Assembly (NCBI GenBank): GCA_025059715.1
Contig: JANXCE010000012.1
Location: 1-55,589, forward strand
Source of the DNA: Caldimicrobium sp.
GTDB lineage: Bacteria > Desulfobacterota > Thermodesulfobacteria > Thermodesulfobacteriales > Thermodesulfobacteriaceae
Reading direction: 5' to 3'
DNA length: 55,589 nt
Every line of letters begins with the position of its first letter. Position 1 is the first letter of the stretch. This document shows, piece by piece, positions 8,565 to 52,536 of the stretch. The translations under genes were made by a program, and so were the position numbers. Under the pieces are notes generated by a model. The model was not told the DNA's origin, did no database searches, and saw nothing but the letters and a program-made list of their open reading frames with translations.

Positions 8565-11500
8565 ATGGAAGTTATTAAATTTGGAGTTTGCACTCCCTGT
8601 GCAGAGATAGTTCCCTCCTTCTGGGAAGAATTTACTCAAGAACTGGAAAAGGTAGTCCCTTTTAAGGTAGACTTAAAACTTTTTAACAGTCTTAGAGAAG
8701 AGAAAGAAAAAATAGAGAAAGAGCACTTTCATCTTTATTATGCCAGTCCAGAAATAGCCTACCTTTTAAGAGAAAGGGGTTATAAAGTATGGGCCAGATT
8801 TAAAGATCCTGGAAATAGATTTCTTATAGTTAAAAAGAAAAATAAAGTTGAAAAGGATAGGATAGCTCTTCTTTGCGAAAAATTTATTCTTTTAGGAATC
8901 TTTTTATCTTCCTTACCTTTAAAAAAGATAGAACTTTTATTTACCATTTCCCATAAGCAAACCTTAGAGTTCTTAAGGGAAGAAAAGGCCTATTACGGCG
9001 TTTTTTATGAGAATTACTGGAAAAATTTGTCAGAAGAGGTAAAAAGTGAATTTATCGTAGAGGAGATCGGGGCTTATCCTTTGTATCATTACTTTTTAGT
9101 TGAACCTGAATTTTATAAAAAATACCGAGAAAATCTAAGCTTTTTGTGTAAAAAGTACCCTCTCGAAGTAGTTGCAAAAGAAGAGGCTAAGTATCTTGAA
9201 GAGTTAGACGAAAAAATATCCTTAATTACAGAATTTCTTAAAAATAGAGAATTAATAAAGCACATTCTTTCACATCCTAATATTCATATAGCTATTTATA
9301 AAGAGTATTTCGTCTATGTTAATGATAACTTTCTCAAAGTTACAGGATACACTTTAGAAGAGTTTACCCAATTAAAGCCTGAAGAAATCGTCTGGGAAAG
9401 AGATAGAGAAAGGGTAAAATCTATCGTTCAAAGACGCTTAGCTGGAGAAAAATTCCCCGTTCTTTATGAAGAATTAGGATTTAAGTGTAAGGACGGAGCG
9501 ATTCGTTATTTTTTTGTTCTTTCCCAAACTATTTTTTATGAAGATTCCTATGCAGGATTAATTATAGCTATAGACATTACAGAAAAAAAGATTTTTGAAA
9601 ACTTTTATAAAATTTTAAAGGAGTTAAATCAGTATATTATTGAAATTGAGGAAGAAGAAAAACTTTTGGAGAATGTAGCAAAACTCTTAGTTAACTACTT
9701 AGGGTTAAAGCTTGTTTGGTTAGGGATAGTTGATGAAAATAAATTTGTAAGGCCTATTTTGGGATGTGGCGAAGAAATCTCCTATTTAGAAAAAGTAAAA
9801 ATTGTTCTTGATGAAACGCAAGCTGAGGGTAGGGGACCCACCGCCCAAGCTATTCTTCAAGGGAAAATTGTCATCAACGAAAATACCCTTCTTAATCCCC
9901 AGATGAAACCCTGGAGAGAAGAGTTACTCAAGAGAAATCTTCTTTCCAGTTGTGCGATTCCTATTTATAAAAAAGGTCAACTTTATAGAGTGCTTAATCT
10001 TTACGCCTCTTCCCCTTACTTTTTTAACGAACACCTTAGAGAGATCCTATACGAACTAAAGCGAGATTTGGAATACGCCTTAGAAAAGATTGAAGTTTTA
10101 AGAGAGTATCAGCTTTTGTATCAAGTAATAGAAAAAAGTAGAGAATGGATTTTAATTACAGACCGAGAGGGTCGTATTATATATAGTAATCCTTTTGTAA
10201 GTGAAATCTCCGGTTATTCTAAGGAAGAGCTTCTCGGAAAAACTCCTAATATTTTTAAATCAGGACTACATTCTAAGGAATTTTATCAAGAACTCTGGGA
10301 AACTATACTTTCTGGTAGGTCCTTTTCCAGTGTTATAGTAAACCGAACCAAGGAGGGAAATTTTTTTAAATTGGAAGAAACTATCCACCCTGTTAAACTT
10401 TCAGACGAAGAGATAAGATTTATTATTCTTGGAAGGGATTTAACTAAGGAGGAATTTCTTTCTGAAGAAATAGAAAAACTTAAGTATTACGATCATCTCA
10501 CAGGTGTTTATAACTTTTCTACCTTTAGTTTTAAAGCTAAAGAAATCTTAGAAGAAGAAAAGCCTTTCTTGGTTCTTCTTATTATTGATATATATAACTT
10601 TTCCTTAATTAACTTCAAATATGGACCTGAAATAGGAAGTAAAGTTTTAAAGATAACAGCTGAAAGATTAAGGCAAACCTTTGAGGAAGAGGGATTTATT
10701 GCCAGAACAGGAGGAGATGAATTTTTCCTTTTAATTTTTAAATTAGAAGATAAAGAGGATATACCTAAGGTTTTGGAGAAGGTTAGGTCTGTTTTTGAAA
10801 CTCCCTTTTTAACGGAACAAGGAGAAATAGAAATTGGATTTAATGCAGGCGTGGTAATTTATCCTGAGGATGGAAAAACCTTAGAAGAACTATATAAAAA
10901 GGCTGTCCTTTTAGTAAAGGAGGCTAAGAGGGAAGGAGAAAATTTTATTAAATTTAGTAATCCTCTAATTGAAAAGGACTTTGAAAAGCATATCCAAGCA
11001 GAGATTTTAATTAAAAGAGCTTTAGAGAAAGATCTTTTTACCTTTTTTTATCAACCCTATTATGACACTCACTATTTTAGGTTAGCTGGATTAGAAGCCC
11101 TGATAAGAATCGTGGACAAGGCAAGTCAAAAAATTTATTATCCTTCCGATTTTATTGATCACTTAGAGGATAGTAAATATCTGGAATTTTTTGAAAATTG
11201 GGCCTTTGAAAAGATAATTCAACAAATTGAAAAGTGGAAAGTGCCTATTTCTTTAAATTTATCAGCCCGAAGCTTTTTTAACGAAACCTTTATCTTAAAT
11301 TTATGTAAGAAAATTCCTGAAAGTTTAGCTTCTTACTTTTGTTTAGAAATTACCGAAAGAAGTTTAATGAAGGATTTGGAAAGAGCTAAAAAAATTATCC
11401 AATCTATAAAAATAGAAAGGAATATAAAATTAGCCCTTGATGACTTTGGCACTGGCTATTCCTCTCTTATTCACATAAGCGAACTTCCTCTGGATTTAAT

Positions 11501-11732
11501 TAAGATAGACCGAATCTTTATTCAGAAGCTCTCTAAAAGTCATAAAGATATGGCTTTAGTTAAAGTTATTATTGATTTAGCCCACACCTTTGAAATGAAA
11601 GTCTGTGCAGAGGGTGTGGAAAATGAGGAGGAGGTAAGAATTCTTGACCTTATGGGATGTGACTATCTCCAGGGATTTCATTTTAATAAACCTCTTCCGG
11701 AAGAAAAAGTAGAAGAACTTCTTAGAAGGTAG
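8565..11732 (+). CDS. PBP-like/PAS/GAF/PAS/GGDEF/EAL signalling protein
   Basis: A 1055-residue multidomain protein. Residues 1-215 resemble a PhnD-like periplasmic-binding-protein fold but without a signal peptide or membrane segment, so the whole protein appears cytoplasmic. PAS (about 230-345), GAF (about 350-505) and PAS (about 515-640) follow. The GGDEF domain (about 645-800) keeps RTGGDEF near 714, but the DxLTxLxN motif reads DHLTGVYN and the usual FKxIND/GHxxGD region is FSLINF/GPEIGS, so cyclase activity is doubtful. The EAL domain (about 815-1055) keeps LEAL, ITER, DDFGTGYSSL, KIDR, EGVE and QGFHFNKPLP and is probably an active c-di-GMP phosphodiesterase. It starts directly after the mqnE stop codon. 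Confidence 0.88.
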   Translation: MEVIKFGVCTPCAEIVPSFWEEFTQELEKVVPFKVDLKLFNSLREEKEKIEKEHFHLYYASPEIAYLLRERGYKVWARFKDPGNRFLIVKKKNKVEKDRIALLCEKFILLGIFLSSLPLKKIELLFTISHKQTLEFLREEKAYYGVFYENYWKNLSEEVKSEFIVEEIGAYPLYHYFLVEPEFYKKYRENLSFLCKKYPLEVVAKEEAKYLEELDEKISLITEFLKNRELIKHILSHPNIHIAIYKEYFVYVNDNFLKVTGYTLEEFTQLKPEEIVWERDRERVKSIVQRRLAGEKFPVLYEELGFKCKDGAIRYFFVLSQTIFYEDSYAGLIIAIDITEKKIFENFYKILKELNQYIIEIEEEEKLLENVAKLLVNYLGLKLVWLGIVDENKFVRPILGCGEEISYLEKVKIVLDETQAEGRGPTAQAILQGKIVINENTLLNPQMKPWREELLKRNLLSSCAIPIYKKGQLYRVLNLYASSPYFFNEHLREILYELKRDLEYALEKIEVLREYQLLYQVIEKSREWILITDREGRIIYSNPFVSEISGYSKEELLGKTPNIFKSGLHSKEFYQELWETILSGRSFSSVIVNRTKEGNFFKLEETIHPVKLSDEEIRFIILGRDLTKEEFLSEEIEKLKYYDHLTGVYNFSTFSFKAKEILEEEKPFLVLLIIDIYNFSLINFKYGPEIGSKVLKITAERLRQTFEEEGFIARTGGDEFFLLIFKLEDKEDIPKVLEKVRSVFETPFLTEQGEIEIGFNAGVVIYPEDGKTLEELYKKAVLLVKEAKREGENFIKFSNPLIEKDFEKHIQAEILIKRALEKDLFTFFYQPYYDTHYFRLAGLEALIRIVDKASQKIYYPSDFIDHLEDSKYLEFFENWAFEKIIQQIEKWKVPISLNLSARSFFNETFILNLCKKIPESLASYFCLEITERSLMKDLERAKKIIQSIKIERNIKLALDDFGTGYSSLIHISELPLDLIKIDRIFIQKLSKSHKDMALVKVIIDLAHTFEMKVCAEGVENEEEVRILDLMGCDYLQGFHFNKPLPEEKVEELLRR

Positions 11733-11787
11733 AGATCTATTTCAAGGATTTAAAAATTTCATCTGCAAAACTCATCTTTTATTGCCA

Positions 11788-11816
11788 TTGACAAAAAATA
11801 TAAAATGTGTTTAATA
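11788..11816 (+). promoter_or_regulatory. cbiMNQO promoter
   Basis: TTGACA (11788-11793), 17-bp spacer, TTAATA (11811-11816). The predicted transcript begins within or just before the dyad at 11820-11838 and reaches the AAGGAG site of cbiM. No cobalamin riboswitch fits in the roughly 30-nt leader. Confidence 0.6.
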
Positions 11817-11819
11817 AAA

Positions 11820-11838
11820 ATGATAAAAAAAATTACCA
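11820..11838 (+). promoter_or_regulatory. Putative operator shared with the TonB-receptor operon
   Basis: ATGATAAAAAAAATTACCA is an imperfect dyad (ATGATAA, six A, TTACCA; the right arm reads TGGTAA on the other strand). The identical 19 nt recurs at 14480-14498 at the start of the receptor-CbiZ-CobN operon. The position just after the -10 box suits a repressor site, possibly cobalt- or corrinoid-responsive; that role is inferred from the genes it precedes. Confidence 0.5.
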
Positions 11839-11851
11839 CAAAGGAGCTAAT

Positions 11852-12565
11852 ATGAAATCAAAATTTTTAATGGGTATCCTTTTTTCCCTAATTTTTAGTG
11901 AGCCTAGCTATGCCATGCACATTTCAGAGGGTATCTTACCTTTCCGTTGGGCTCTTATTTGGTGGATTTTAGCCTTATTTTTTCTGATTTGGGGATTAAG
12001 AGGTTTAAGAAACTATCTTAACCGGTTTCCTGAAAGAAAGCCTCTTATTGGTTTTTTAGGAGCTATGGTTTTTCTTTTTTCTGTGCTTCCCATTCCTGTT
12101 CCTATAGCAGGAACGTGTTCCCATCCTGTAGGGGTGGGATTTTCAGCTATCCTTATAGGTTTTTCAGGAAGTATAGTCATAGGTTTTGTAGTTCTTCTTT
12201 TGCAAGCTTTACTTTTAGCCCATGGTGGTCTTTCCTCTCTTGGAGCAAACGCCATCTCCATGGCAGTCATAGGAAGTCTAAGTGCCTTTCTTACTTATAA
12301 AATACTTACCCAAATCAGACTTAACCTTTATCTTTCAGCCTTTATAGCTGGAGTTTTAGCAGACTGGTTTACCTATCTCACCACTGCTTTTCAATTAGCT
12401 TTAGCTCTAAAAGGTGAAGAAGCCCTATTTTCTCTTTTTCTAAAAATAGCCTTAGCTTTTACTCCCACTCAAGCTCCTCTTGGGCTTTTAGAAGGAGTAG
12501 TTACTGCTGGAATCGTAGGAGTAATCTATAAGAGAAAACCAGAATTTCTGATGGGGAGGTTTTAA
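11852..12565 (+). CDS. cbiM: Cobalt ECF transporter S component CbiM
   Basis: This membrane component binds Co2+ for the CbiMNQO energy-coupling-factor transporter. I chose the ATG at 11852 because AAGGAG lies correctly spaced upstream; the longer frame from 11807 begins inside the promoter leader. Residues 1-20 form a signal peptide ending SYA, and cleavage would expose Met-His-Ile (MHISEGILP), the conserved N-terminal metal-binding motif of CbiM/NikM. About six to seven membrane segments follow. The segment CSHPVGVGFSAILIG and the LLAHGGLSSLGAN stretch are typical. Nickel specificity (NikM) is the alternative; the CbiZ and CobN neighbours favour cobalt. The next gene starts at the following base. 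Confidence 0.93.
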   Translation: MKSKFLMGILFSLIFSEPSYAMHISEGILPFRWALIWWILALFFLIWGLRGLRNYLNRFPERKPLIGFLGAMVFLFSVLPIPVPIAGTCSHPVGVGFSAILIGFSGSIVIGFVVLLLQALLLAHGGLSSLGANAISMAVIGSLSAFLTYKILTQIRLNLYLSAFIAGVLADWFTYLTTAFQLALALKGEEALFSLFLKIALAFTPTQAPLGLLEGVVTAGIVGVIYKRKPEFLMGRF

Positions 12566-12883
12566 ATGAAAAGTAAGAGGTGGCTTAAAAGTTTTTTAAT
12601 GGTATTATTAATAGGACTTAGTTTTTTAAGTTTAGGGGTAACGGTCTTTTCTGCTGAAGGGGAAGAAGGTAAGTGGAAGGGAGTTGACGAGGCAGTTATT
12701 GAAAAAATTGCTAAGGAAAGGGGGGTTATCCCTAAGGAACCTCTTTTTTCCTTAGAAGGAGATTTGGAACTTTTTGCTTTTAGTTTACTAAGCGGAGGTT
12801 CAGGTTTTGTAGCTGGCTATTATTGGCGAAAACTTATAGGTGAAAAAAGTGATGCCTCTTCTTTACGAAAGACTACCTCCTAA
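12566..12883 (+). CDS. cbiN: CbiN-like small transporter component
   Basis: A 105-residue protein with two membrane segments (about 8-29 and 69-88) enclosing an extracytoplasmic loop with WKGVDEAVIEKIA, followed by the GFVAGYYWRKL segment. This layout fits the small accessory CbiN/NikN-type subunit that works with CbiM in substrate loading, although the sequence is not the classical enterobacterial CbiN type. It starts immediately after the cbiM stop and its 3' end overlaps cbiQ. The symbol reflects position and architecture and is less certain than those of its neighbours. Confidence 0.7.
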   Translation: MKSKRWLKSFLMVLLIGLSFLSLGVTVFSAEGEEGKWKGVDEAVIEKIAKERGVIPKEPLFSLEGDLELFAFSLLSGGSGFVAGYYWRKLIGEKSDASSLRKTTS

Positions 12884-13568
12884 ATTTTTTCAAATCCTTG
12901 ATCCCAGAATTAAATTTTTTCTATTCCTTGTAAATCTTAGTTTAGTTCTTCTTTCTTCCAAGCCGGGTTTTCAATTAGCTTGTTTAGCTCTCAATGTCTT
13001 AGCTTTAAAAATTTTTAACCTAAGTTGGAAAAATCTTTTTAAACTTTGGATGGAACCCCTTATTATAGCCTTAGTTTTACTTTTTCTTAAAAGCTTTACT
13101 TTTTTTCCTCCTAATTTTAGTCCTGAAGGTTTTAAGGAGGGTATCCTTTTAGTTGTTAGAGTTCTTTCTGCAGTTTCTGTGGTTTCCTTTTTCCTTTTTA
13201 CTACCACCGTTTCAGAAATTTTACAAGTTTTAAGTTGGTGTAGGGTGTCTAAACTTTTTTTAGAAGTGTTACTTCTTACCTATCGTTTTGTTTTTTTACT
13301 TTTTGATGAAGTTCAAGTAGCCTTTATAGCTCAAAAAAATAGACTTGGTTATACCAGTTTTAAAAATACCCTAAATTCTTTAAAACTCTTGGGAGTTGTC
13401 ACCTTTTTGAGAATTTATCAACACTCAGAAGAGATTTTACAAAGTATGGAACAAAGAGGCTATGAATTCAAAAATCTAATTTATCACAACTTTCGTCTAA
13501 AAATTCAAGATTTAATCTATCTTGGTTCAGGAACACTTCTCCTTTTTATCCTATGGAAGGTTCTGTAA
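12840..13568 (+). CDS. cbiQ: ECF transporter T component CbiQ
   Basis: The 242-residue transmembrane coupling protein begins with the family-typical YERLPPKFFQILDPRIKFF segment. It has about five to six hydrophobic helices and the cytoplasmic coupling helices: the FDEVQVAFIAQKNRLGY region and the C-terminal EEILQSMEQRGYEFK, the second of the family's coupling motifs that dock on the ATPase. Possible starts are GTG 12840 and ATG 12852 (MPLLYERLPP); both overlap cbiN, which implies translational coupling. It also overlaps cbiO by 16 bp. Confidence 0.92.
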   Translation: MKKVMPLLYERLPPKFFQILDPRIKFFLFLVNLSLVLLSSKPGFQLACLALNVLALKIFNLSWKNLFKLWMEPLIIALVLLFLKSFTFFPPNFSPEGFKEGILLVVRVLSAVSVVSFFLFTTTVSEILQVLSWCRVSKLFLEVLLLTYRFVFLLFDEVQVAFIAQKNRLGYTSFKNTLNSLKLLGVVTFLRIYQHSEEILQSMEQRGYEFKNLIYHNFRLKIQDLIYLGSGTLLLFILWKVL

Positions 13569-14398
13569 GAATTAGGGTCAACCTAAAAAGTTTTAGTTAT
13601 CCCTATTCTAATCCGATTCTGAAGGATATTTTTTTAGAAGTAAAGGGTGGTGAATTTTTAGTTATCCTGGGAGCAAGTGGGGTAGGCAAAACCACTCTTT
13701 TAAAGTTAATAGATGGACTTTTTAAAAAATATGAGGGAGAAATTTTTTTAGATGGAATAGAGATAAGAAAACTTAGGCCGAAAGAAATTTACCGCAAAAT
13801 GGGACTTCTTTTTCAAAATCCTGAGGAACAACTTTTTGCTACCACAGTCTTTGAGGATGTAGCCTTTGGTCCGAGAAATATGAATTTTTCTGAAGAGGAA
13901 GTTAAGACAAGGGTAGGAGAAGCCTTAAGTTTGGTAGAGATGTCTGATTATCAGGAATGCCCTATTTCCCATCTAAGTTACGGGCAAAAAAAGAGGGTTT
14001 GCTTGGCTGGACTTTTAGCCATGGGACATGAAATTTTACTTCTTGATGAGCCCACCCAAGGACTTGACCCTCTCTTAGAAAAAAATTTTTTAAATCTACT
14101 TTTAAAATTAAAAAAAGAAAAAGCTCTCACTTTGATTATGGCTACCCATCAAGTTGATTTAGTGCCCTATATAGCTGATAAGGTAGCTATCTTACATAAC
14201 AAAACTATGGCCAAAATAGGAACCCCTCATGAAATATTTAATGATCCCGAGGAACTTGAAAAATATTCCTTAAGACTACCTTCCATAGGAGAACTCTTTT
14301 TTGAGGTTTGGAAAAAGTTTTCCGATGGCTCTCCCCTTCCTTTAACCGTTGAAGAAGGTAAAACCTTCTTAAAGAAAAAATTTCATCCCCTTTCTTAA
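13553..14398 (+). CDS. cbiO: Cobalt ECF transporter ATPase CbiO
   Basis: This is the energising ATPase of the cobalt transporter (281 residues). It has the Walker A motif GASGVGKTT, a Q-loop FQNPEEQLFATTVFEDVAFG (the PEDQ-type region characteristic of ECF/CbiO ATPases), the signature LSYGQKKRV, Walker B LLLDEPTQGLD, and the switch histidine in MATHQ. It overlaps the end of cbiQ by 16 bp and closes the cbiMNQO operon. A 118-bp gap with its own promoter separates it from the TonB receptor operon. Confidence 0.95.
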   Translation: MEGSVRIRVNLKSFSYPYSNPILKDIFLEVKGGEFLVILGASGVGKTTLLKLIDGLFKKYEGEIFLDGIEIRKLRPKEIYRKMGLLFQNPEEQLFATTVFEDVAFGPRNMNFSEEEVKTRVGEALSLVEMSDYQECPISHLSYGQKKRVCLAGLLAMGHEILLLDEPTQGLDPLLEKNFLNLLLKLKKEKALTLIMATHQVDLVPYIADKVAILHNKTMAKIGTPHEIFNDPEELEKYSLRLPSIGELFFEVWKKFSDGSPLPLTVEEGKTFLKKKFHPLS

Positions 14399-14453
14399 AA
14401 AAAAATCTAAGATTTAAATAGTAATTCTTTTTATCATTTTTAAAAATCTTATA

Positions 14454-14481
14454 TTGACTTCTTTAAAAAATATTTTAATAT
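14454..14481 (+). promoter_or_regulatory. Promoter of the receptor-CbiZ-ExbB-CobN operon
   Basis: TTGACT (14454-14459), 16-bp spacer, TAATAT (14476-14481). The -10 box runs into the shared 19-nt dyad (14480-14498), so a bound regulator would occlude polymerase. A GGGGGG ribosome-binding stretch precedes the receptor ATG at 14517. No riboswitch-length leader is present. Confidence 0.6.
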
Positions 14482-14498
14482 GATAAAAAAAATTACCA
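14480..14498 (+). promoter_or_regulatory. Putative operator, second copy
   Basis: The same 19 nt as at 11820-11838 (ATGATAAAAAAAATTACCA). Here the next base is T, which completes a 7-6-7 imperfect inverted repeat, ATGATAA/TTACCAT. It overlaps the -10 box and start point of the operon. Confidence 0.5.
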
Positions 14499-14516
14499 TA
14501 TTAAAGGGGGGAAACT

Positions 14517-16508
14517 ATGGGAAGGAAGATCTTTTTCGTCCTTTCTTTGCTCGGAGGCTTTTTTATTCTAAAATCAGAAGTCCTTTCTCAGGAAAGAACC
14601 GAACTTGAAGAAGTGGTAGTTACTGCAACCAGAATAGAAGAACCTAAAAAAGAGGTTTCTTCTTTTGTACAAATTTATACTCAGGAAGAAATAAGACTTT
14701 ATCCAGGAAGAGATGTAGGAGACCTATTGAGCTCTTCTGGAATAGGACATATTCATAAATATCCAGGGGTTCTTACCACTGTTCGTATAAGAGGTATGCC
14801 TTCTGATGTTCACGGAGACCTATACAAAAGCCAAGTGCTTTATCTCATAGATGGAAATAGAGCAGGTACAGCTAACTTAGCTAAAATTCCCTTAGATGAC
14901 ATAGAAAGGATAGAAATTTTAAAAGGTCCAGCCTCTGTTCTTTACGGCACTCAAGCTATGGGTGGAGTGGTAAATATAATTACCAAAAAAGCTAAAAAAG
15001 AAGGAGTTCAATTTGAGGCCGGAGCTGAAGGGGGGTCTTGGGATTACTATAAAGGAAAATTAGAACTTATGGGAAAAAAGGGAGAACTTATTTTTTATCT
15101 TCTTGGAACCAGAAGTGCTCAAAACGATTATGCCTCTAAAAGATGGGGAAAAATAAAAAATAGTGGTTATGATGACGAAAGTTTCTCTGCTAAACTTGGG
15201 TATAAATTTTTGGGGATACATGAACTCCTTTTTTTCTTTCAACATCAAAAAGGTTGGAAAATCGGAAGTCCAGGAGCAAGATATGAGCCTGATATTAATG
15301 ACTATTCTGATAAAGGAAGAAAGAGCTACACCTTAAGTTATAATTCTCCCTTTTTAAAGGGTTCTTTTTATTTTATTAAAGATGAAGATGAGTGGCACGG
15401 TTTAAATGATACTTCTTCCCTAAGAGAGTGGATCTACTATAAAAAATTGGAAAGTTATGGAGTAAATTTACAAAAGGATTTTAAACTTAAGAACTTAAGA
15501 GTTCTTGCTGGAGGAGAAATTCACGGAGTTAAGCTTAAAACCGATTATCTCAATCTTCCTTGGTTTTATTTTTCTATTTCTTCAAGTGAATATAATTCCT
15601 GGGGAGTATTTTCAGAGGCTAAAATTCCACTCTTTGAAGAAAAACTTCTTTTATTTATAGGAGCAAGATATGACTTCTTTAAGAATAGTTTTAATTATCA
15701 GAGAGTTCCGGGAGGAAGTTTTCGCCCTAAAGAGAGAAACTTTGACCACACTACTTTAAGAGGTGGTTTAGTTTATAAAATTTCTAAAAATTTAAGTTTA
15801 AAAACTAATTTGGGGACAGGTTTTAGAGCTCCTACTCCTGATGAGTTAGCTATGGATCATATAGATTCTTATGGAAATCACTATATAGGAAATCCCTCTC
15901 TTAAAGCTGAAAAAAGTTTAACCTGGGATGGAGGTTTAGAATATGGAAGTCCTCTTCTTAACTTCAGTTTTTCTTACTTTGTAACTAACTTTAAAGATAG
16001 AATTATAAGTGGAGTTCCCCATCCTACCTTAAAAAAAACTTTTACTTATAAAAATATTAAGGGAGCCAAAATTCAAGGTTTAGAATTAAACTTAAACTCA
16101 GAGCTTGCTACCTATCTAAAACTTCCCTTTTCAGTCAAACCTTTTATAAATCTAACCTATCATACCCAATACAGAGACCAAGAAGCTAAAGCTTCTTTAA
16201 CCTATACTCCTAAATGGATTGGAAGTTTTGGTATTAGGGCTAAGAGTAACCTATGGAATTTAGAATTTTATGGAGTTTATGTAGGAGACGAAAAGGTAAT
16301 AGACTGGAGATGGGGTTCTCCTACCTATCGCCAAAGGATTCCTAAAAAGGATTTTACTGTTTTTAATACCAGCTTATCCTTAAAACCTTATAAAGGATGG
16401 GAGTTCACCCTGAAAGTGGAAAATCTTTTTAACCGGCTTTACGAGTATGTTAGAGGCTATCCTATGCCAGAGAGAACCTTTAAAGTAGGCTTAAGTTATA
16501 AATTTTAG
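14517..16508 (+). CDS. TonB-dependent outer-membrane receptor, probably for corrinoids
   Basis: The 663-residue receptor has a signal peptide (about 1-24), a mature N-terminus with a TonB-box-like EEVVVTATRIEE, a plug domain (VGDLLSSSGIG, VLYLIDGNRAG, RIEILKGPASVLYGTQAMGG, INIIT-type region), and a beta barrel ending in the aromatic C-terminus VGLSYKF used for BAM insertion. It resembles the BtuB/CirA class and is length-typical. Substrate is inferred from neighbours: exported CbiZ starts 26 bp downstream, then ExbB- and CobN-like genes, so a corrinoid or other metallo-tetrapyrrole is likely. Its own operon encodes a candidate ExbB/ExbD-like motor. No TonB gene is in the window. Confidence 0.9.
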   Translation: MGRKIFFVLSLLGGFFILKSEVLSQERTELEEVVVTATRIEEPKKEVSSFVQIYTQEEIRLYPGRDVGDLLSSSGIGHIHKYPGVLTTVRIRGMPSDVHGDLYKSQVLYLIDGNRAGTANLAKIPLDDIERIEILKGPASVLYGTQAMGGVVNIITKKAKKEGVQFEAGAEGGSWDYYKGKLELMGKKGELIFYLLGTRSAQNDYASKRWGKIKNSGYDDESFSAKLGYKFLGIHELLFFFQHQKGWKIGSPGARYEPDINDYSDKGRKSYTLSYNSPFLKGSFYFIKDEDEWHGLNDTSSLREWIYYKKLESYGVNLQKDFKLKNLRVLAGGEIHGVKLKTDYLNLPWFYFSISSSEYNSWGVFSEAKIPLFEEKLLLFIGARYDFFKNSFNYQRVPGGSFRPKERNFDHTTLRGGLVYKISKNLSLKTNLGTGFRAPTPDELAMDHIDSYGNHYIGNPSLKAEKSLTWDGGLEYGSPLLNFSFSYFVTNFKDRIISGVPHPTLKKTFTYKNIKGAKIQGLELNLNSELATYLKLPFSVKPFINLTYHTQYRDQEAKASLTYTPKWIGSFGIRAKSNLWNLEFYGVYVGDEKVIDWRWGSPTYRQRIPKKDFTVFNTSLSLKPYKGWEFTLKVENLFNRLYEYVRGYPMPERTFKVGLSYKF

Positions 16509-16533
16509 AAAAATTATTAAAGGGGGGTAAAAT

Positions 16534-17382
16534 ATGAAAAGAATTTTTAATTCATGGTTACTTTTAGCGATTTTTTTAATGGGGAGTTATTTTCAGGCTA
16601 AGGCTAAAGAAATTCTTCTTCCTTCAGAACTTAAAGCCAAGGCTTGGGTTTTAAAAAAGGAAAATCCTCAAGGGTTATGGGAAAAAACCCTTATAGTAAA
16701 GCTTGAGTCTGAAAGAAAGGTTCTTTCAACTAATGACGGATATCTTAGTGCTTCTTTGATAATTAATCACTCTGCCCATCCAGAAATTTGGAAAAAGGTT
16801 TGTATAGAGAAAAAGACTGAGAAAGAGGCAGGAGGAAAGGTTTATATTAGGGAGGTTAAAAAAGGTATAGCAGAGGATTTAAAAGTGGATGAAAAAAAGA
16901 TAGCTATGATGGCCACAGCTGCCAATATGGATAACCTTGCGGTGGTTACAGAAAGCTTTATTACTTCTAAGGGCATTAAGGTTATGGTTACTGCTTTAGT
17001 TACTGCAGGAGCAGAAAGTAATGCTTTGAGAACCGGTTTAGATAAAGGTCGCTACTTAGAGGGAGAAATGGTAGACCCTGGAACGGTAAACATTCTTCTT
17101 TTAACCAATCTTACCTTAACTGAATCAGCTTTAGCCAGAGCTATTATTACTATTACCGAAGCTAAGACCGCTGCTTTTCAAGACCTAAAAGTACCAAGTT
17201 CTTACACCAAAGAGGTTATAGCCACTGGAACAGGAACAGATTCCGTAATAATAGTTTCTGGAACTGAACCTCCTCTTATCACCTATGCAGGAGGTCACAG
17301 TAAATTAGGAGAACTTATAGGGAAAGCGGTTTACAAAGCTGTAAAAATAGCACTCTGTAAACAAAATGGTTTTTGTGAGTAA
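16534..17382 (+). CDS. cbiZ: Exported adenosylcobinamide amidohydrolase CbiZ
   Basis: CbiZ hydrolyses the amide bond holding the aminopropanol arm of (adenosyl)cobinamide or some cobamides, giving cobyric acid for remodelling. Family segments are clear: VTAGAESNALRTG, the NILLLTNLTLTESALARAI region, TITEAKTAAFQDL, ATGTGTDSVIIVSGTE, and the C-terminal TYAGGHSKLGELIGKAVY. Unlike the cytoplasmic archaeal enzyme, it begins with a typical signal peptide (charged MKR, hydrophobic core, QAKAKE around 22-27), predicting a periplasmic protein. It is 282 residues. It lies between the receptor and the ExbB-like gene in one tight operon, placing the reaction right after outer-membrane import. Confidence 0.9.
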   Translation: MKRIFNSWLLLAIFLMGSYFQAKAKEILLPSELKAKAWVLKKENPQGLWEKTLIVKLESERKVLSTNDGYLSASLIINHSAHPEIWKKVCIEKKTEKEAGGKVYIREVKKGIAEDLKVDEKKIAMMATAANMDNLAVVTESFITSKGIKVMVTALVTAGAESNALRTGLDKGRYLEGEMVDPGTVNILLLTNLTLTESALARAIITITEAKTAAFQDLKVPSSYTKEVIATGTGTDSVIIVSGTEPPLITYAGGHSKLGELIGKAVYKAVKIALCKQNGFCE

Positions 17383-17391
17383 TTAAAAACT

Positions 17392-18579
17392 ATGGATTCC
17401 TTAAGCTTTTTTCTTTTTACTATAGGAATGGCTTTTAGCCTAAGTTCCTTTTCTTTTAAGGTAGCCTTGGCTTTAAAGAGCTGGAAAGCTTCTTTTAAGT
17501 TTATCATAGCTATTCTTTTACTTTATTTAGGACTTTTTTTGCTAACTACTTTAAGCTTAAAAGCTTTTCTTGTTTTTCTTGAGCCTTTTTTTAGGGGAGC
17601 CTTTTACTTTCACCTTTTTATGGCCTTAGGTTTAATTATTTGGGGAAGTTATCTTGTTTGGAGACCACATCCCACCTCATATAAATCTATCCTTATTCTT
17701 CTTTTTCCCTGCCCGGTTTGTCTCTCTGCTATAGCTTTATCAAGCTATCTTTTTTTAAAAGCCTTTCCTCTACCCCCTCTCTTAGGTGGTGTTATCCTGG
17801 GAGGAATCTTTTCCTCCCAGGTTCTTTTTTTCTACTTCCTTTACGACCTTTTTTTTAGGAATCTTTCCCAAACCCTTTCTCAAGCCCTACTTGGCATTTT
17901 AATGATACTTATAGGGCTTTACTTAATAGGCTCCTTTTATTTTCCTTCTAAAATTGAAGAACTAAAAAGCGCAGGAGGACCTATGAGTTTTTTATCCCTT
18001 TTGGAAAGTTTTCTTTATCTTATAGCCTCTTCTCTTTTTATTCCTGTTCTTTTAGGACTTATTTTTCTTGTTTTTTGGATGGTTTACCAGATGGGAACTT
18101 TTTTAAGAGAATTAGTAGAAAGGCTAAGCCAAAAAAATGCTTTTTTAGAAAATTTCAAAAGAGAACTTATAGAATTAGAAAAAACCACTTCTTCTGAATT
18201 TTTGGAAATTGAAATAGAAAATTTTTTACAAGAAAGGGAACTTAAGCTTCTTAAAAGTCTTGACCAGGTTAGATTTGTGATAAGAGTGGGTCCGGCTTTA
18301 GGACTTTTAGGAACGATTATTCCCATGGGTATGGCTTTAGCAGAACTGGCTAAGGGAAATTTACCTAAGATGGCTGGAAGTATGGTTACAGCTTTTACTA
18401 CTACAGTGGTTGGTCTTACCTGTGGAGTAGTTGCCTATCTTATATCCTTAGTCAAAGAACGTTGGATAAGAGAAATTTTAAAAGAAATGCATTACTTAGC
18501 AGAATTCATCCTAATTAACTCTTTTCTTAAAAAAGAGGAAAAGTATGAAGAAATTTCTAAAAAGAGAAAAAGCTTATAA
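17392..18579 (+). CDS. DUF2162 - MotA/TolQ/ExbB fusion, proton-channel protein
   Basis: This 395-residue inner-membrane protein has two parts. Residues 1-190 contain about six hydrophobic helices resembling the DUF2162 putative-transporter domain, with a CPVC motif in a loop (about 110-113). Residues 205-385 form an ExbB/TolQ/MotA proton-channel domain, with the segment VGPALGLLGTIIPMGMALAE and the channel-lining Thr-rich TAFTTTVVGLTCG. It begins 9 bp after cbiZ and its 3' end overlaps the DUF2149 gene by 35 bp. With DUF2149 it probably makes a proton-motive-force motor serving the CobN-like protein, as in the haem loci of Bacteroidota and in methanogen clusters. It may alternatively power TonB. 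Confidence 0.85.
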   Translation: MDSLSFFLFTIGMAFSLSSFSFKVALALKSWKASFKFIIAILLLYLGLFLLTTLSLKAFLVFLEPFFRGAFYFHLFMALGLIIWGSYLVWRPHPTSYKSILILLFPCPVCLSAIALSSYLFLKAFPLPPLLGGVILGGIFSSQVLFFYFLYDLFFRNLSQTLSQALLGILMILIGLYLIGSFYFPSKIEELKSAGGPMSFLSLLESFLYLIASSLFIPVLLGLIFLVFWMVYQMGTFLRELVERLSQKNAFLENFKRELIELEKTTSSEFLEIEIENFLQERELKLLKSLDQVRFVIRVGPALGLLGTIIPMGMALAELAKGNLPKMAGSMVTAFTTTVVGLTCGVVAYLISLVKERWIREILKEMHYLAEFILINSFLKKEEKYEEISKKRKSL

Positions 18580-18880
18580 AAGGACTTCCCTTGAGGATCC
18601 TCTTTCTGGAGTAGCCAATCTTTTTGACATCAGTGTAGTTTTTATCGTATGTCTTATAATTGCTCTTTTTACAGCCTATAATCTTTTAGAACTTTTAAAT
18701 CCCAAATCTGAATTTACCTTAGTTAAAAAAACTCCTCCAGGAGAAATAGAGATTATTACTAAAAAGGGAGTAGAGATTAAGGCTCAGAAAATTACTAATA
18801 AAACCCTTTTTGGAGAGGGGAAAAAACTTGGAACAGCTTATCAACTTAAAGATGGAACAGTAATCTATGTTCCTGAATAG
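18545..18880 (+). CDS. DUF2149 protein, ExbD-like motor partner
   Basis: A 111-residue protein with one membrane helix (about 29-50) and a small extracytoplasmic domain. It has the DUF2149 signature EDPLSGVANLFD. Asp28 at the mouth of the helix (LFDISVVFIVCLI) sits where ExbD/TolR carry their essential proton-path aspartate (LVDV-type), so I read it as an ExbD analogue for the preceding ExbB-like protein. It overlaps both neighbours (35 bp upstream, 14 bp with the CobN gene), which implies strict stoichiometric co-translation of the three. Confidence 0.82.
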   Translation: MKKFLKREKAYKRTSLEDPLSGVANLFDISVVFIVCLIIALFTAYNLLELLNPKSEFTLVKKTPPGEIEIITKKGVEIKAQKITNKTLFGEGKKLGTAYQLKDGTVIYVPE

Positions 18881-21800
18881 GTTTCTTTTGATTTTCCTTT
18901 GGTTACTTATTTTATTTTCTAAAGCTTGGGGAAAAAAAGATTCAACCCTTAAAATAAGTTTTCTTTTGGGAGATTTAGCAACTAAGCCCTTATCTCAAGC
19001 TATCAAGGAAGTAAAAAAGGAATTGCCTTTAGAGATTTACTCTCGTCTTCAAATTAAGGTTTATCCTCAAAAAAACTTAAAAAATAAAGATTTAGATTTT
19101 TTGAAAAATTCTAACCTTATAATAATTAACCTTATGGGTAGGCAAATTTATGAGATGGTAAAAGAGGAGCTGAAAGAGGCTTCTCTAAGGGGGGCTCAAA
19201 TTTTTGGAGTTTATGCCTTAGGTTCTTATGATGAAGAAATGAAAAACTTAGGAATCCAGATAGATCCAGAGGTGGAAAAATATAACCAAGAAGGAGGTCT
19301 TTTAAACTATAAAAATCTTCTTTTTTATCTTCTTAAAGAAAAGTTGGGATTTCAGCAAGTCTCCTATCAAAAACCCTTTGAAATTCCAGAATTAGCAATT
19401 TACGACTGTGCTTCGGGAAATCTTTTTACCTCCTATGAAGAATTTTGGTCTTACCAAAAAAAGACCCGTTCCTTAGAAGATTTAGCTAATCCTTGGATAG
19501 GAATTCTTTTTTATAAACTAAACTATACTTCAGCTCAAATGGAACCTATTTGTAGTATTTCCTTAACTCTACAAAAGGATGGTTTCAATGTAATTTCTGC
19601 TTGGGGATATCCTTCAGAAAGAGTTATTAATGAATTTTTTTTAGAAGAAGGGCAAAAATCTCGCCTTAATCTTCTTATAGCTTTTGCCTTAAAGGTAGGT
19701 GTTATTCCTAAAAGTCTTGGTCCAGTCTTAGAAAGATTAGATGTGCCTGTGATAAATGTCATTTCTCTTTATCGTCAGAGTCAGGCTGAGTGGGAAAATT
19801 CTCCCATAGGACTTGATATTTTTGAAAGGACCTGGCAAATTTTTAATCCCGAACTGGTAGGAATTATTCAACCTATGGTAGTAGCAGCTAAGGAATTAAG
19901 ATACGATGAAGATTTGCAAGAAGAGGTAGTGGAAGAAGTTTCTATTCCTGAAAGGATTGAAATCTTAGTTAAAAGGGTTAAAGCTTGGATAAACTTACAG
20001 AAAAAGAAAAATTCAGAAAAGCGCATAGCTATTATTTATTACAACTATCCTCCTGGTAAACAAAACATAGGAGCAAGTTATTTAAAGGTGTTGCCTGACA
20101 CTTTGGCTATAATTTTAGACCGATTAAAAGTTGAGGGATATTGGATAGGAGAGGAAGAACTTGATAAAGAGCTTCTTTTTAGCCGGGTTTTAAACTATGG
20201 AAGAAATATTGCTAAATGGGCTCCCTCTGAAATTGAAAAGTTGGTAAAAGAAGGAAAACCGGTTCTCATTCCTTTTGAAAAATATAAAAGGTGGTTTTTT
20301 GAACTCCCAGAAAAATTTAGAATTCATGTGATTAAAGATTGGGGAGAACCTGAAAAGGCTGAAATTATGACCTGGAAAGATGCTAAAGGAGAGAAATTTT
20401 TCATTATTCCTGCGATAAACTATGGAAATATTCTTCTAACTCCTCAGCCTTCTAAGGCTTGGGAACAGGCTTTGGAAAAGGCTTATCACCAAAATACCCT
20501 TGCTCCCCATCATCAATATATAGCTTTTTATTTGTGGTTAAAAAAGGAATTTCAAGCAGATGCTGTAATTCACCTTGGAACTCACGGAACCCACGAATGG
20601 TTTCCAGGAAAGGAGGTAGGTTTTACGGCCTGGGATGACCCTGAAGTTTTGATCCAGGACCTACCCAATATCTATCCTTACATTGTGGATAATGTAGGAG
20701 AGGGACTTCAAGCTAAAAGAAGAGGTTTAGCGGTAATTATAGACCATATGACTCCTCCTTTAAGCTTAGCTTTTTTAAATCCAGACCTCAAAAATTTAAA
20801 AAATCTCTTACAAGACTGGGAAATTGCTAAGGAAAAAAATCCCCTTTTGGCTGAAGGAAAGTTAAAGGAAATTACAGCCTTAGTTAAAAAGATGGGACTT
20901 TTAAAAGACTTAGGTCTTGACTTAACCCAAGAAGAACTTATTCAATTGGAAGATATTAAAAAAATTGAAAACTATCTTAACGAAATAGAAGAAACTGTAG
21001 TTCCCTATGGACTCCATGTTTTTGGAAAGGCTCCAGAAAAGTCCTATGTAGAGGAAACGGCTAAAGCCATAGTTAATGTAGAAAAAAATCTAACTGAAGA
21101 GGAAAGAAAGGCTAAGGTAGAAGAATACATAAGAAGGATTTATGCCTCTGCAGAAAGAGAGCTTAATTTCTTGGTAAGAGCCTTAGAGGGAAGGTATGTT
21201 CCTGCTGGTTCCGGAAATGACCCTATTAGAAATCCAGACAGTCTCCCTACTGGAAAAAACTTTTATGCCTTTGACCCAAGCAAGATACCCTCTCCTGGAG
21301 TTTTTGAAATGGGTCAAAAGCTGGCTGAAGAACTTATAGAAAATTACAAACTTAAGCATAAAAAATATCCAGAGAAAGTAGCTTTTGTTCTTTGGGCTGT
21401 GGAAACTATAAGGCACGAAGGAATAATGGAATCTCAAATTCTTTCTCTCTTAGGAGTAAAGCCCAAGTGGGATGAAAGAGGAAGGGTGGTGGGTTTAGAG
21501 CTTATCCCTCGCGAAAAGCTAAAAAGAAATCGCATAGATGTGGTAATCACTACTTCAGGACTTTATAGAGACCTTTTTTCTAACTTAGTTTACTTTTTAG
21601 ATCAAGCCATAAGTTTAGCTAATTCAGCTAAAGAAAAGGATAATTTAATCAGAATCAATACTGAACAGAGGAAAAAGCTTTTAGAAGAAAGGGGGATCTC
21701 GCCAGAGCTTGCAGAAAGATTAGCCAAGGTGCGTATCTTTTCTGAAGAATCTGGAAGCTATGGAACAGGCTTAGATACTATAATTTCAGCTTCCCATTCC

Positions 21801-22844
21801 TGGAAGTCTGAAAAAGAAGTGGCAGAGGTTTATCTTAAGAGAATTTCTTTTATCTTTGGCCAGGGTTTTTGGGGAGAAAAAATGGTTATCCCTGAAGAAA
21901 ACCAAACTAAGGAAAATCTTAATCTTTGGCTTTTTAAGAATAATCTTTCTGGAACTAAGGTAGCTCTTCATAGCCTTTCTACTTCAGTTTTCGGAACCTT
22001 GGATAACGACGATTTTTTTCAGTATTTAGGTGGCTTAACTTTAGCAATAAGGACTATAGATGGTAAAAGTCCAGAGGTTATGGTTACCAATTTATCTAAT
22101 CCTTTAAATCCTCGGCAGGAAAGTTTAGCGCAAACTATGGGAAGAGAATTAAGAAGTAGATACTTTAATCCTGAATGGATTAAAGTTATGCTTAAAGAGG
22201 GTTATGCAGGAGCCCGTTTGGTGGACAAAATTGTAGAACATCTTTGGGGCTTTCAGGTGACCAATCCAGAAATAGTTGATCATACCAAGTGGCAAGAAAT
22301 GTATGAAATTTATGTTTTAGATAAATATGAACTTAATGTTAAAGAGGCTTTTAAAAGGGCTCAAAATTTATGGGCCTATCAAAGTATTTTAGCCAGAATC
22401 CTTGAAACCATTCGTAAGGGTTACTGGAAGCCTTCCAAAGAAGTGGTAGAAAGATTAGCCCAAGAGGTGGCTCAAAGTGCTATTGAAGTAGGTCTGGCTT
22501 GCTGTGAACACACCTGTAACAATCCTCTCCTTAGTTCTTTCATTGCTTCAATTTTAATAGGGATCCCTGGAGAAGAAAAAAGAGTTGTTAGTTTTCAACA
22601 AGTTCTTAAAAACTTAAAATCTGAATGGGAAACAGTTCCGGGAAAGGATGAAAGATCTAAATTTAATCCTCAATGGACAAAGATTCCAGGTTTTTCTTTA
22701 GTAAAAGGCTATATCTTAGAAGAAATAAAGGATTCTTCACCGCCAACTTCATCTTCTGCTCCTCTACCTTATTTATACATTTTAGGCTTTTTAATCCTAA
22801 GTTTAATATTTCTAAAGGGGTTTAAAAGAAAGATTTTTAAATAA
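18867..22844 (+). CDS. Membrane-anchored CobN-like chelatase (possible dechelatase)
   Basis: The 1325-residue protein belongs to the CobN/BchH large chelatase family. It has the core HLGTHGTHEWFPGKE (from His569), the DNVGEGLQAKRRGLAVIIDH segment, and a CCEHTC cysteine/histidine cluster at 1212-1217. Unusually, it starts with a signal-like hydrophobic N-terminus (about 4-22) and ends with a hydrophobic helix and basic tail (about 1301-1325), predicting an exported, membrane-tethered enzyme. No CobS/CobT or ChlI/ChlD ATPase subunits are nearby; instead ExbB- and ExbD-like genes precede it with overlap. This matches CobN-like HmuS of Bacteroidota haem loci, reported to remove metal. Corrinoid cobalt removal or insertion is inferred. 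Confidence 0.87.
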   Translation: MFLNRFLLIFLWLLILFSKAWGKKDSTLKISFLLGDLATKPLSQAIKEVKKELPLEIYSRLQIKVYPQKNLKNKDLDFLKNSNLIIINLMGRQIYEMVKEELKEASLRGAQIFGVYALGSYDEEMKNLGIQIDPEVEKYNQEGGLLNYKNLLFYLLKEKLGFQQVSYQKPFEIPELAIYDCASGNLFTSYEEFWSYQKKTRSLEDLANPWIGILFYKLNYTSAQMEPICSISLTLQKDGFNVISAWGYPSERVINEFFLEEGQKSRLNLLIAFALKVGVIPKSLGPVLERLDVPVINVISLYRQSQAEWENSPIGLDIFERTWQIFNPELVGIIQPMVVAAKELRYDEDLQEEVVEEVSIPERIEILVKRVKAWINLQKKKNSEKRIAIIYYNYPPGKQNIGASYLKVLPDTLAIILDRLKVEGYWIGEEELDKELLFSRVLNYGRNIAKWAPSEIEKLVKEGKPVLIPFEKYKRWFFELPEKFRIHVIKDWGEPEKAEIMTWKDAKGEKFFIIPAINYGNILLTPQPSKAWEQALEKAYHQNTLAPHHQYIAFYLWLKKEFQADAVIHLGTHGTHEWFPGKEVGFTAWDDPEVLIQDLPNIYPYIVDNVGEGLQAKRRGLAVIIDHMTPPLSLAFLNPDLKNLKNLLQDWEIAKEKNPLLAEGKLKEITALVKKMGLLKDLGLDLTQEELIQLEDIKKIENYLNEIEETVVPYGLHVFGKAPEKSYVEETAKAIVNVEKNLTEEERKAKVEEYIRRIYASAERELNFLVRALEGRYVPAGSGNDPIRNPDSLPTGKNFYAFDPSKIPSPGVFEMGQKLAEELIENYKLKHKKYPEKVAFVLWAVETIRHEGIMESQILSLLGVKPKWDERGRVVGLELIPREKLKRNRIDVVITTSGLYRDLFSNLVYFLDQAISLANSAKEKDNLIRINTEQRKKLLEERGISPELAERLAKVRIFSEESGSYGTGLDTIISASHSWKSEKEVAEVYLKRISFIFGQGFWGEKMVIPEENQTKENLNLWLFKNNLSGTKVALHSLSTSVFGTLDNDDFFQYLGGLTLAIRTIDGKSPEVMVTNLSNPLNPRQESLAQTMGRELRSRYFNPEWIKVMLKEGYAGARLVDKIVEHLWGFQVTNPEIVDHTKWQEMYEIYVLDKYELNVKEAFKRAQNLWAYQSILARILETIRKGYWKPSKEVVERLAQEVAQSAIEVGLACCEHTCNNPLLSSFIASILIGIPGEEKRVVSFQQVLKNLKSEWETVPGKDERSKFNPQWTKIPGFSLVKGYILEEIKDSSPPTSSSAPLPYLYILGFLILSLIFLKGFKRKIFK

Positions 22845-51783: not shown

Positions 51784-52536
51784 TCAATTTCTCTTTATCT
51801 TAAGATTTACCTTCTGAAGAGCACCACTCTTAAAGAGAACAGGGGCTCCTTTACCTTCACAGATTAAACGGAAGAGAAGATCTCCCTCCTTCACCACTAC
51901 ACCAGAGAGCCAAGTCACTGGCGTAAATTTAAACAGCTCTGGAGCAAGAGGAGTTGAAGGGCCCATCAGTATTACTTCAGGAATTTTCTCTAAATAAGGC
52001 ACTAATTTATGAAAGGTTTTATTAACCAAGGTTGCAGAGGTAACTATGGCCAAAGAGATCTTCCCCGTCTCGGTGATGATTTTAAGTCCCTCTTGAGACC
52101 CTTCTCGTTCTATTAACCAGATTCTACCCACCTTTCTTTCCAACTTTTTAAAAATAGGTTCAATATATCCTATCATGAGTATTTCATCTTGTAGGGTTAA
52201 TTTCCCATTAGAGAGTGGGTCTTCAGTTGTTGTCTCCCTTAGGATTTCCTTGCGATTGTTTAAAAGGGCATTAATTACTGCTAAGGCCACAGTAGATTCT
52301 AAGACACCTGAAGAGAGATACTTTTTTACTAAGATATCTGCAGGCTCTCTCCAAAGGGCCCCTTCCGCAAATCCACAGCAATCTTCAATTAATTCCTTAG
52401 GTGTATAAGCTAAACCATATCCCGTTCGCTCCACTTCCGCTAAAGTATAGAATAATCCAACTAATACCTTTTTTACCCTCTTAGCTCTGGCTAAACTTAG
52501 CGCAAGGTTTACCAATTCTCCATAAAGGCCTTCCAT
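51784..52536 (-). CDS. DUF364 (putative heavy-metal chelation) protein
   Basis: The 250-residue protein fits the DUF4213/DUF364 layout: an N-terminal domain with GLAYTPKELIEDCCGF and a C-terminal domain starting ILMIGYIEPIFKKL and carrying IVTSATLVNKTF, LMGPSTPLAPELF and TWLSGVVV. The family is described as putative heavy-metal chelation; its biochemical role is open. The CC pair (49-50 region) may matter. It is separated from dapB by 66 bp and followed closely by a small membrane protein and murI. Confidence 0.82.
   Translation of the reverse strand: MEGLYGELVNLALSLARAKRVKKVLVGLFYTLAEVERTGYGLAYTPKELIEDCCGFAEGALWREPADILVKKYLSSGVLESTVALAVINALLNNRKEILRETTTEDPLSNGKLTLQDEILMIGYIEPIFKKLERKVGRIWLIEREGSQEGLKIITETGKISLAIVTSATLVNKTFHKLVPYLEKIPEVILMGPSTPLAPELFKFTPVTWLSGVVVKEGDLLFRLICEGKGAPVLFKSGALQKVNLKIKRN

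Follow-up and report, generated by a model that had tools for sequence, protein, structure and literature searches.

A CobN-like gene cluster of Caldimicrobium as a candidate corrinoid counterpart of the Hmu haem system

Described relatives and layout of the cluster

The nearest studied relative of the genes considered here is the Hmu haem system of Bacteroidota (hmuYRSTUV; PMC10434189; PMC12583661), which gut bacteria use and whose HmuS protein has been shown to remove iron from haem and whose catalytic histidine is essential for this de-chelation (PMC12583661). Our subject is a gene cluster in a 55,589-nucleotide stretch of DNA from Caldimicrobium sp. (GenBank assembly GCA_025059715.1, contig JANXCE010000012.1; hereafter 'the window', meaning the whole stretch analysed), in which a CbiMNQO-type transporter precedes a receptor, an exported CbiZ, a DUF2162-ExbB fusion, a DUF2149 protein and an exported, membrane-anchored CobN-superfamily protein. 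The cluster is very probably a periplasmic corrinoid-processing system of the B12 regulon that is driven by proton-motive force. We further propose, with a probability of roughly 0.45, that it is the corrinoid counterpart of Hmu, including the whole of a chain in which cobalt would be removed from the corrinoid.

The likeness to Hmu takes in an outer-membrane receptor, an exported and anchored CobN-superfamily protein, an ExbB-type component (HmuU), a DUF2149 component (HmuV) and the equivalent of HmuS His538. The sequence-only reading that preceded our analysis had drawn this analogy, and it is borne out by the ExbB and DUF2149 partners as well as by HmuS being the best solved relative of the CobN protein. 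The two systems differ in that the window cluster includes an exported CbiZ but lacks HmuY, His254, His1209 and the methionine-rich insertion of HmuS. Its membrane protein is a DUF2162 protein with a PCPxC motif that HmuT does not match, and whereas Hmu is under iron control, relatives of the window cluster are preceded by a cobalamin riboswitch.

Parts of such a system have been noticed before. Bacteroides was seen to have Hmu-like operons under cobalamin riboswitches (PMC10100974), and PMC6460266 cites a previous suggestion that CobN proteins include a third type, 'BtuS'; these share with the window cluster's relatives a CobN-like protein and Hmu-type partners under a cobalamin riboswitch, but exported CbiZ, CbiMNQO and DUF2162 are undescribed there, and the substrate and chemistry were left open. 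A CobN-ExbB-TonB cluster was likewise noted, its role left open, among the cobalamin genes of a Geobacter lovleyi plasmid (PMC3403914). This plasmid (now Trichlorobacter lovleyi, NC_010815) carries the receptor-DUF2162-ExbB-DUF2149-CobN run beside CbiMNQO and corrin genes, with a CobN that is 51% identical to that of the window; it differs in having no CbiZ in the stretch shown, an additional ExbB-ExbD-TonB set, and DUF2162 and ExbB as separate proteins. The CobN fold is also shared by CobNST and by the CobN-ChlI-ChlD systems found in BtuFCD operons of relatives, but those proteins are cytosolic, ATP-driven and anchorless, and form a separate branch.

The sequence-only reading knew of no earlier description of the combination, a statement that these reports soften (PMC10100974, PMC3403914 and the 'BtuS' proposal via PMC6460266). 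Within the papers we searched, which left most subscription papers beyond reach, we found none on enzymatic cobalt removal, and several features appear undescribed: the exported CbiZ and BtuF-like-CbiZ proteins, the link to CbiMNQO, the PCPxC that DUF2162 invariably carries in such loci, the residues that set HmuS apart from the corrinoid type, and the side-by-side occurrence of iron, nickel and cobalt contexts. We know of no enzyme that extracts cobalt from an intact corrin.

The genes of the cluster are as follows.

11852..12565, + strand: CbiM, S component of a cobalt energy-coupling factor (ECF) transporter (PF01891, 181 bits; TIGR00123, 188.7 against a cut-off of 184.15; a leader precedes the N-terminal MHIS)
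12566..12883, + strand: CbiN-like small membrane protein of 105 amino acids (placed between CbiM and CbiQ; homologue at the equivalent place in locus L018/L013)
12840..13568, + strand: CbiQ, T component of the cobalt ECF transporter (TIGR02454, 118 against a cut-off of 111.8)
13553..14398, + strand: CbiO-type ECF ATPase (PF00005; TIGR01166 cbiO, 187 bits, under the cut-off of 211.8)
14517..16508, + strand: TonB-dependent outer-membrane receptor, predicted to be a corrinoid receptor (PF00593, PF07715)
16534..17382, + strand: exported CbiZ, adenosylcobinamide amidohydrolase (PF01955, 168 bits; N-terminal hydrophobic leader)
17392..18579, + strand: DUF2162-ExbB fusion, a multi-helix membrane part followed by an ExbB-type proton-channel part (PF09930, DUF2162, 98 bits; PF01618, MotA_ExbB, 53 bits)
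18545..18880, + strand: DUF2149 protein, proposed ExbD-like motor partner and HmuV counterpart (PF09919, 101 bits)
18867..22844, + strand: exported, membrane-anchored CobN-superfamily chelatase of 1325 amino acids (PF02514, CobN-Mg_chel, 1034 bits)

A gap of 118 bp separates CbiO from the receptor. From the receptor onward the genes are tightly packed, with gaps of 25 bp (receptor to CbiZ) and 9 bp (CbiZ to the fusion) and overlaps of 35 bp (fusion and DUF2149) and 14 bp (DUF2149 and CobN). Positions, order, overlaps and domains agree with the sequence-only reading, as judged by Pfam and NCBIfam scores and measured distances, and so do the signal-like N-terminal stretches of CbiM, the receptor, CbiZ and CobN and the C-terminal hydrophobic anchor of CobN, which were called by sequence inspection and simple hydropathy rather than by a trained predictor. 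The likelier start of CbiM is 11852 (an ATG, with a signal peptide), not 11807. Consensus promoter- and terminator-like matches at the cluster are no more frequent than in shuffled sequence, and the cluster may form one or two transcription units.

CbiM and CbiQ exceed the NCBIfam cut-offs for cobalt transporters and the accompanying ATP-binding cassette ATPase falls under that of the cbiO model; the 105-residue protein has zero hidden Markov model matches (Pfam and NCBIfam models), its place and size fitting CbiN. We speak of a predicted cobalt carrier, with cobalt favoured over nickel by context alone. The receptor scores 196 bits with the NCBIfam haem receptor model and 146 bits with the B12 receptor model, both far under cut-off, and shares 49% identity over its length with the receptor of locus L030, whose gene directly follows a cobalamin riboswitch. 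A domain search of the cluster's proteins revealed no chelatase ATPase (CobS/T or ChlI/D) and no HmuY. Elsewhere in the window, at 51784-52536 on the minus strand, lies a DUF4213/DUF364 protein whose Pfam name is putative heavy-metal chelation.

Riboswitches, CbiZ and the CobN protein

The sequence-only reading had suggested a survey of gene neighbourhoods as a check on its proposal. A species-genome collection scanned with a DUF2149 alignment yielded 169 relatives; we retained 80 loci, and together with the window these make the 81 loci discussed below. The 80 are the closest by DUF2149, and the counts describe that neighbourhood rather than all such systems. ExbB is present in 76 of the 81 loci, CobN in 77, a receptor in 67, DUF2162 in 42, CbiZ in 22 and the sirohydrochlorin chelatase CbiK in 14. 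The relatives are spread over several phyla, and genomes of the same genus and family retain receptor, CbiZ, DUF2162, ExbB, DUF2149 and CobN. Recurrence in many genomes places the gene set of the cluster beyond chance. One copy (L018/L013) has flanks nearly identical to those of the window and a contig coverage of 1.85, and is possibly misbinned.

In 29 of 49 scanned loci of relatives, a cobalamin riboswitch (Rfam RF00174) lies no more than 10 kb upstream of DUF2149 and on its strand, and for the 41 loci with a genome-wide riboswitch number, 24 were observed where 0.23 were expected. In L030, which belongs to the same genus as the window, the riboswitch is 43 bp ahead of the receptor gene, and in L022 a single riboswitch heads a run of receptor, CbiM, CbiN, second receptor and CobN core. 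Orthologues of the cluster are members of the B12 regulon in these relatives. Some clusters also contain cbi genes, namely CbiM, CbiQ or CbiK. A CbiK gene in one riboswitch-led CobN locus (L021:5038-6102) encodes an N-terminal signal-like stretch, and this protein is possibly periplasmic.

The CbiZ domain in the window is complete (PF01955 positions 2-191 of 191), and nearly all CbiZ proteins of the surveyed loci have an N-terminal hydrophobic leader. About 14 of them, judged by length, are fused behind a BtuF-type Peripla_BP_2 domain, and the fusions of L016, L026, L079 and L088 were confirmed by Pfam. Since a periplasmic binding domain joined to a corrinoid amidohydrolase is hard to explain otherwise, the fusions argue for corrinoids as the substrate class. 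CbiZ is predicted to work outside the cytoplasm and, from its family, to hydrolyse (adenosyl)cobinamide. In L030 (7600-8680) the CbiZ frame is interrupted between leader and body, perhaps through an assembly error or because the gene is decaying. Together with the riboswitches of orthologues and the neighbouring cbi genes, exported CbiZ and its BtuF-like fusions sustain the periplasmic corrinoid system put forward in the sequence-only reading.

We aligned the CobN protein with the solved HmuS 9d26 and with three authentic HmuS proteins that hmuY operons encode. Its best solved relatives are HmuS 9d26 (496 bits), then CobN (426) and ChlH (399). The catalytic His538 of HmuS, within HFG(T/A)HG, is retained as His573 in VIHLGTHG (residues 567-574), and Met79 has a counterpart (NLMG). 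The HGR motif with His254 is absent, and the methionine-rich insertion (HmuS residues 689-890) has no counterpart in the 9d26 alignment, the window protein having 1325 residues against 1463. At the position of His1209, present in all three HmuS proteins within LSLDHxxEFMGG, the window protein has Asp (aligned residues LDNDDFFQYLGG); this Asp lies in DNDDFFQYLGG, which resembles the motif of true CobN (LDSDDYYQFEGG in 9fpc). Nearly all surveyed copies retain the catalytic motif and lack His1209 and His254, and those that keep the catalytic histidine include the Duganella copies. Exceptions are the CobN-like proteins of L074 and L097 (Chitinophaga and a Moraxellaceae bin), which are beside DUF2149/ExbB and lack the catalytic histidine motif.

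In a tree of a C-terminal segment, for which the rows of HmuS and Brucella CobN were transcribed from printed alignments, anchored CobN proteins and HmuS split from cytosolic CobN (support 100/97), and the long branch of HmuS lies apart from the group linked to riboswitches. The cytosolic proteins have no C-terminal anchor; the window protein is exported and falls outside their branch.

Several loci have further neighbours. In the Desulfobacterota-type loci L068, L069, L077, L092 and L094, CobN is close to a membrane ferredoxin, an HGD-D (double-cubane-type) protein and a BadF/BcrA ATPase, a set that could provide low-potential electrons and that in L069 is faced by a cobalamin riboswitch. Eight Oxalobacteraceae loci (L041, L047, L048, L050, L051, L054, L055 and L056) have a riboswitch-led core flanked by a heavy-metal P-type ATPase with a MerR-like regulator and a heavy-metal-associated (HMA)-like gene.

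Motor, metal contexts and the host's use for cobalt

CobN has ExbB and DUF2149 as partners whether the context is Hmu, corrinoid or nickel. The ExbB domain is matched directly (PF01618), and the assignment of DUF2149 as the ExbD counterpart follows the HmuV literature (PMC10100974). Because there is no ATP in the periplasm, we infer that this proton motor would do the work that AAA+ motor subunits (CobS/T, ChlI/D) do in cytosolic class I chelatases.

The membrane protein varies among these systems. In DUF2162, PCPxC occurs in 48 of 48 sequences, with His74, Phe49 and Tyr177 likewise invariant, and this motif is possibly a metal site. Its structural model is helical (predicted local distance difference test, pLDDT, 88). 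Foldseek gave zero matches at E <= 0.001, and VIA-align gave a best Z of 10 to half of NorA, inside the helical background, so that no fold was identified; the matches listed for the model include none of DsbD or LysE type, which excludes neither. An equation of HmuT with DUF2162 was considered and rejected, as Bacteroidota HmuT proteins do not match DUF2162. The gene in the DUF2162 slot of a Runella plasmid locus is weakly NicO-like and Methylomonas loci have HupE/UreJ genes, from which we infer that the variable membrane protein may occupy a metal-specific slot.

The metals surrounding individual copies are suggestive, although these contexts are single examples and not a counted survey. The host genome has a second anchored CobN (contig C2:52.9-60.4 kb; L011:12536-19991), cut by the contig end, which shares a gene run with two FtsX/MacB-type permeases, FeoA and FeoB and is possibly an iron or haem version. 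On the Runella slithyformis plasmid NC_015693 (L184), receptor, weakly NicO-like protein, ExbB, DUF2149 and CobN are flanked by hypF and hypC within a NiFe-hydrogenase cluster. On the Azospirillum brasilense plasmid NZ_CP012918 (L189), a FecCD-type ABC importer, a TonB receptor and nikR come after CobN-ExbB-DUF2149, and the T. lovleyi core has corrin genes and CbiMNQO around it. It is chiefly these metal importers and regulators, matching the local metal, that lead us to prefer metal release over mere transport.

The host itself seems to synthesise corrins by a route that inserts cobalt early, and additional cobalt would benefit it. Its genome encodes CbiL, CbiF, CbiG-CbiH, CobU, CbiE-CbiT, CobF, CbiX-CbiC, CbiA, CobD, CbiB, CbiP, CobS and a CobT-type protein, some named from sequence and position and others from domains or models; a use for Co2+ follows from the early cobalt chelatase CbiX-CbiC and this corrin gene set. 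CobF (L169:3990-4757; host genome G000, contig C33; TIGR02434, 215.6 bits against 195.8) sits in an otherwise anaerobic-type set with CbiX-CbiC and CbiG-CbiH. A search of the host genome for CbiD (PF01888) found no match, which first suggested that the de novo pathway is missing; this idea was dropped once the corrin genes were found, with CobF over its model cut-off. A B12-dependent enzyme is encoded in the window, at 45524-47248 on the minus strand: NrdJ, the adenosylcobalamin-dependent ribonucleotide reductase (TIGR02504, 693.6 bits).

The sequence-only reading had also noted that CobS/T or ChlI/D partners are missing. This is correct for the cluster; elsewhere in the genome ChlI and ChlD occur beside BtuFCD and TonB-ExbB-ExbD: another contig (L170, contig C18) carries BtuFCD-ChlI-ChlD-ExbB-ExbD-TonB with no CobN between them. 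Related genomes (L173 and L175-L178) have operons of the receptor-BtuFCD-CobN-ChlI-ChlD type with a cytosolic CobN.

Cobalt removal and its alternatives

The chain we propose begins with the receptor, which would carry corrinoids to the periplasm. There, exported CbiZ, an enzyme of known family activity, would remove the nucleotide tail or aminopropanol arm to give cobyric acid with its lower face free. The inner-membrane-anchored CobN, powered by the ExbB/DUF2149 proton motor, would then free Co2+ from the ring, the weakest step of the chain. CbiMNQO, perhaps with the PCPxC protein DUF2162, would move Co2+ to the cytoplasm, where the host's CbiX-CbiC, whose genes are present, could direct it into de novo corrin synthesis. 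Homology to HmuS, together with metal importers and regulators that fit the local metal, argues for cobalt removal, which as the chemistry of the system here we put slightly below an even chance. At clearly less than even odds, and hence tentatively, we also suggest a broader formulation: that a class I chelatase driven by proton-motive force pulls cobalt from an intact periplasmic corrin after CbiZ opens the lower face, and that it is the cobalt member of a single envelope machine with three metal versions (iron, nickel and cobalt).

Several observations weigh against this chain. Cobalt corrins resist demetallation short of ring destruction (PMC6771967). CbiM is within 10 kb in only 7 of the 81 loci, and CbiMNQO could transport Ni2+. 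RF00174 has no match in the window at gathering score, nor in the host's own genome or the closest relative; at a permissive Rfam threshold, window positions 11500-17000 gave no cobalamin riboswitch, and the matches there resemble chance families. Most telling are five Duganella species in which a riboswitch lies just before ExbB-DUF2149-CobN-receptor (Rfam-confirmed in L047, the other four being 84-93% identical to it) but which have neither CbiC, our marker of de novo corrin synthesis, nor DUF2162 in these loci. CbiC is present in 38 of 50 genomes of relatives and, in favour of the chain, goes with DUF2162, accompanying 21 of 23 loci that have it against 17 of 27 without (p = 0.02, uncorrected for ancestry). 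Because the CbiC-less Duganella keep the core with no evident use for freed cobalt, cobalt salvage cannot be universal; either their core serves another role such as uptake, or synthesis was lost recently. The salvage idea of the sequence-only reading may apply to the present host, with its need of Co2+ for an early cobalt chelatase, but cannot be general.

The Duganella loci are also the reason for keeping in view a system of uptake and hand-over without demetallation, which we regard as unlikely though deserving of serious attention. Here ExbB-DUF2149-CobN would bind a periplasmic corrinoid, free it from the receptor or binding protein and pass it, CbiZ-cut or intact, to an inner-membrane importer. 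Riboswitch-led operons without CbiC and in Bacteroides fragilis (PMC10100974) suit uptake better than cobalt salvage, the BtuF-like-CbiZ fusions would be expected to bind corrinoid, and BtuFCD is available on another host contig. However, nearly all copies, those of Duganella included, retain the catalytic histidine, the haem and nickel versions share the motor and adjoin bare-metal importers or regulators, and the nearest studied homologue strips metal (PMC12583661). That homologue, the nearest characterised anchored relative, likewise runs opposite to a further scheme, in which the proton motor would drive CobN forwards to insert Co2+ into salvaged metal-free or wrongly metallated corrinoids, as aerobic CobNST does with ATP. 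Insertion is the known direction of CobN and ChlH, it agrees with the Asp-rich DNDD motif that resembles true CobN, some purple bacteria contain metal-free corrinoids (PMC6771967), and the idea has been proposed for green sulfur bacteria (PMC8620254). Such corrinoids are rare, however, and CbiMNQO takes cobalt in rather than delivering it to the periplasm, which together make insertion improbable.

Two readings that dispense with corrinoids are more improbable still. A strict HmuS-type de-chelatase for haem or another porphyrin, with CbiZ and CbiMNQO nearby by chance, would accord with HmuS being the best solved match, with the Met79 counterpart and with the receptor's top NCBIfam model, a haem receptor under cut-off; against it stand the missing His254, His1209, methionine-rich insertion and HmuY and the riboswitch and cbi contexts across phyla. 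Haem was rejected as substrate on the absent HmuS ligands and the riboswitch contexts. Nickel (or mixed nickel and cobalt) salvage from a nickel macrocycle, for example one like F430, with CbiMNQO as the nickel importer, has comparably poor prospects: other copies of the module do occur in hyp and NikR contexts, and Cbi and Nik transporters are hard to separate by sequence, but exported CbiZ and the cobalamin riboswitches of orthologues indicate corrinoids, and CbiM is over the cobalt model cut-off.

If the cobalt-removal reading is true, anaerobes could use environmental B12-type molecules as cobalt ore, and a proton motor, not ATP, can drive chelatases. Even on the weaker reading, of a periplasmic corrinoid-processing system, CobN-like proteins whose function the authors of the HmuS study listed as unclear (PMC12583661) gain a substrate class. 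In addition, this reading sets up a direct comparison of the iron, nickel and cobalt versions.

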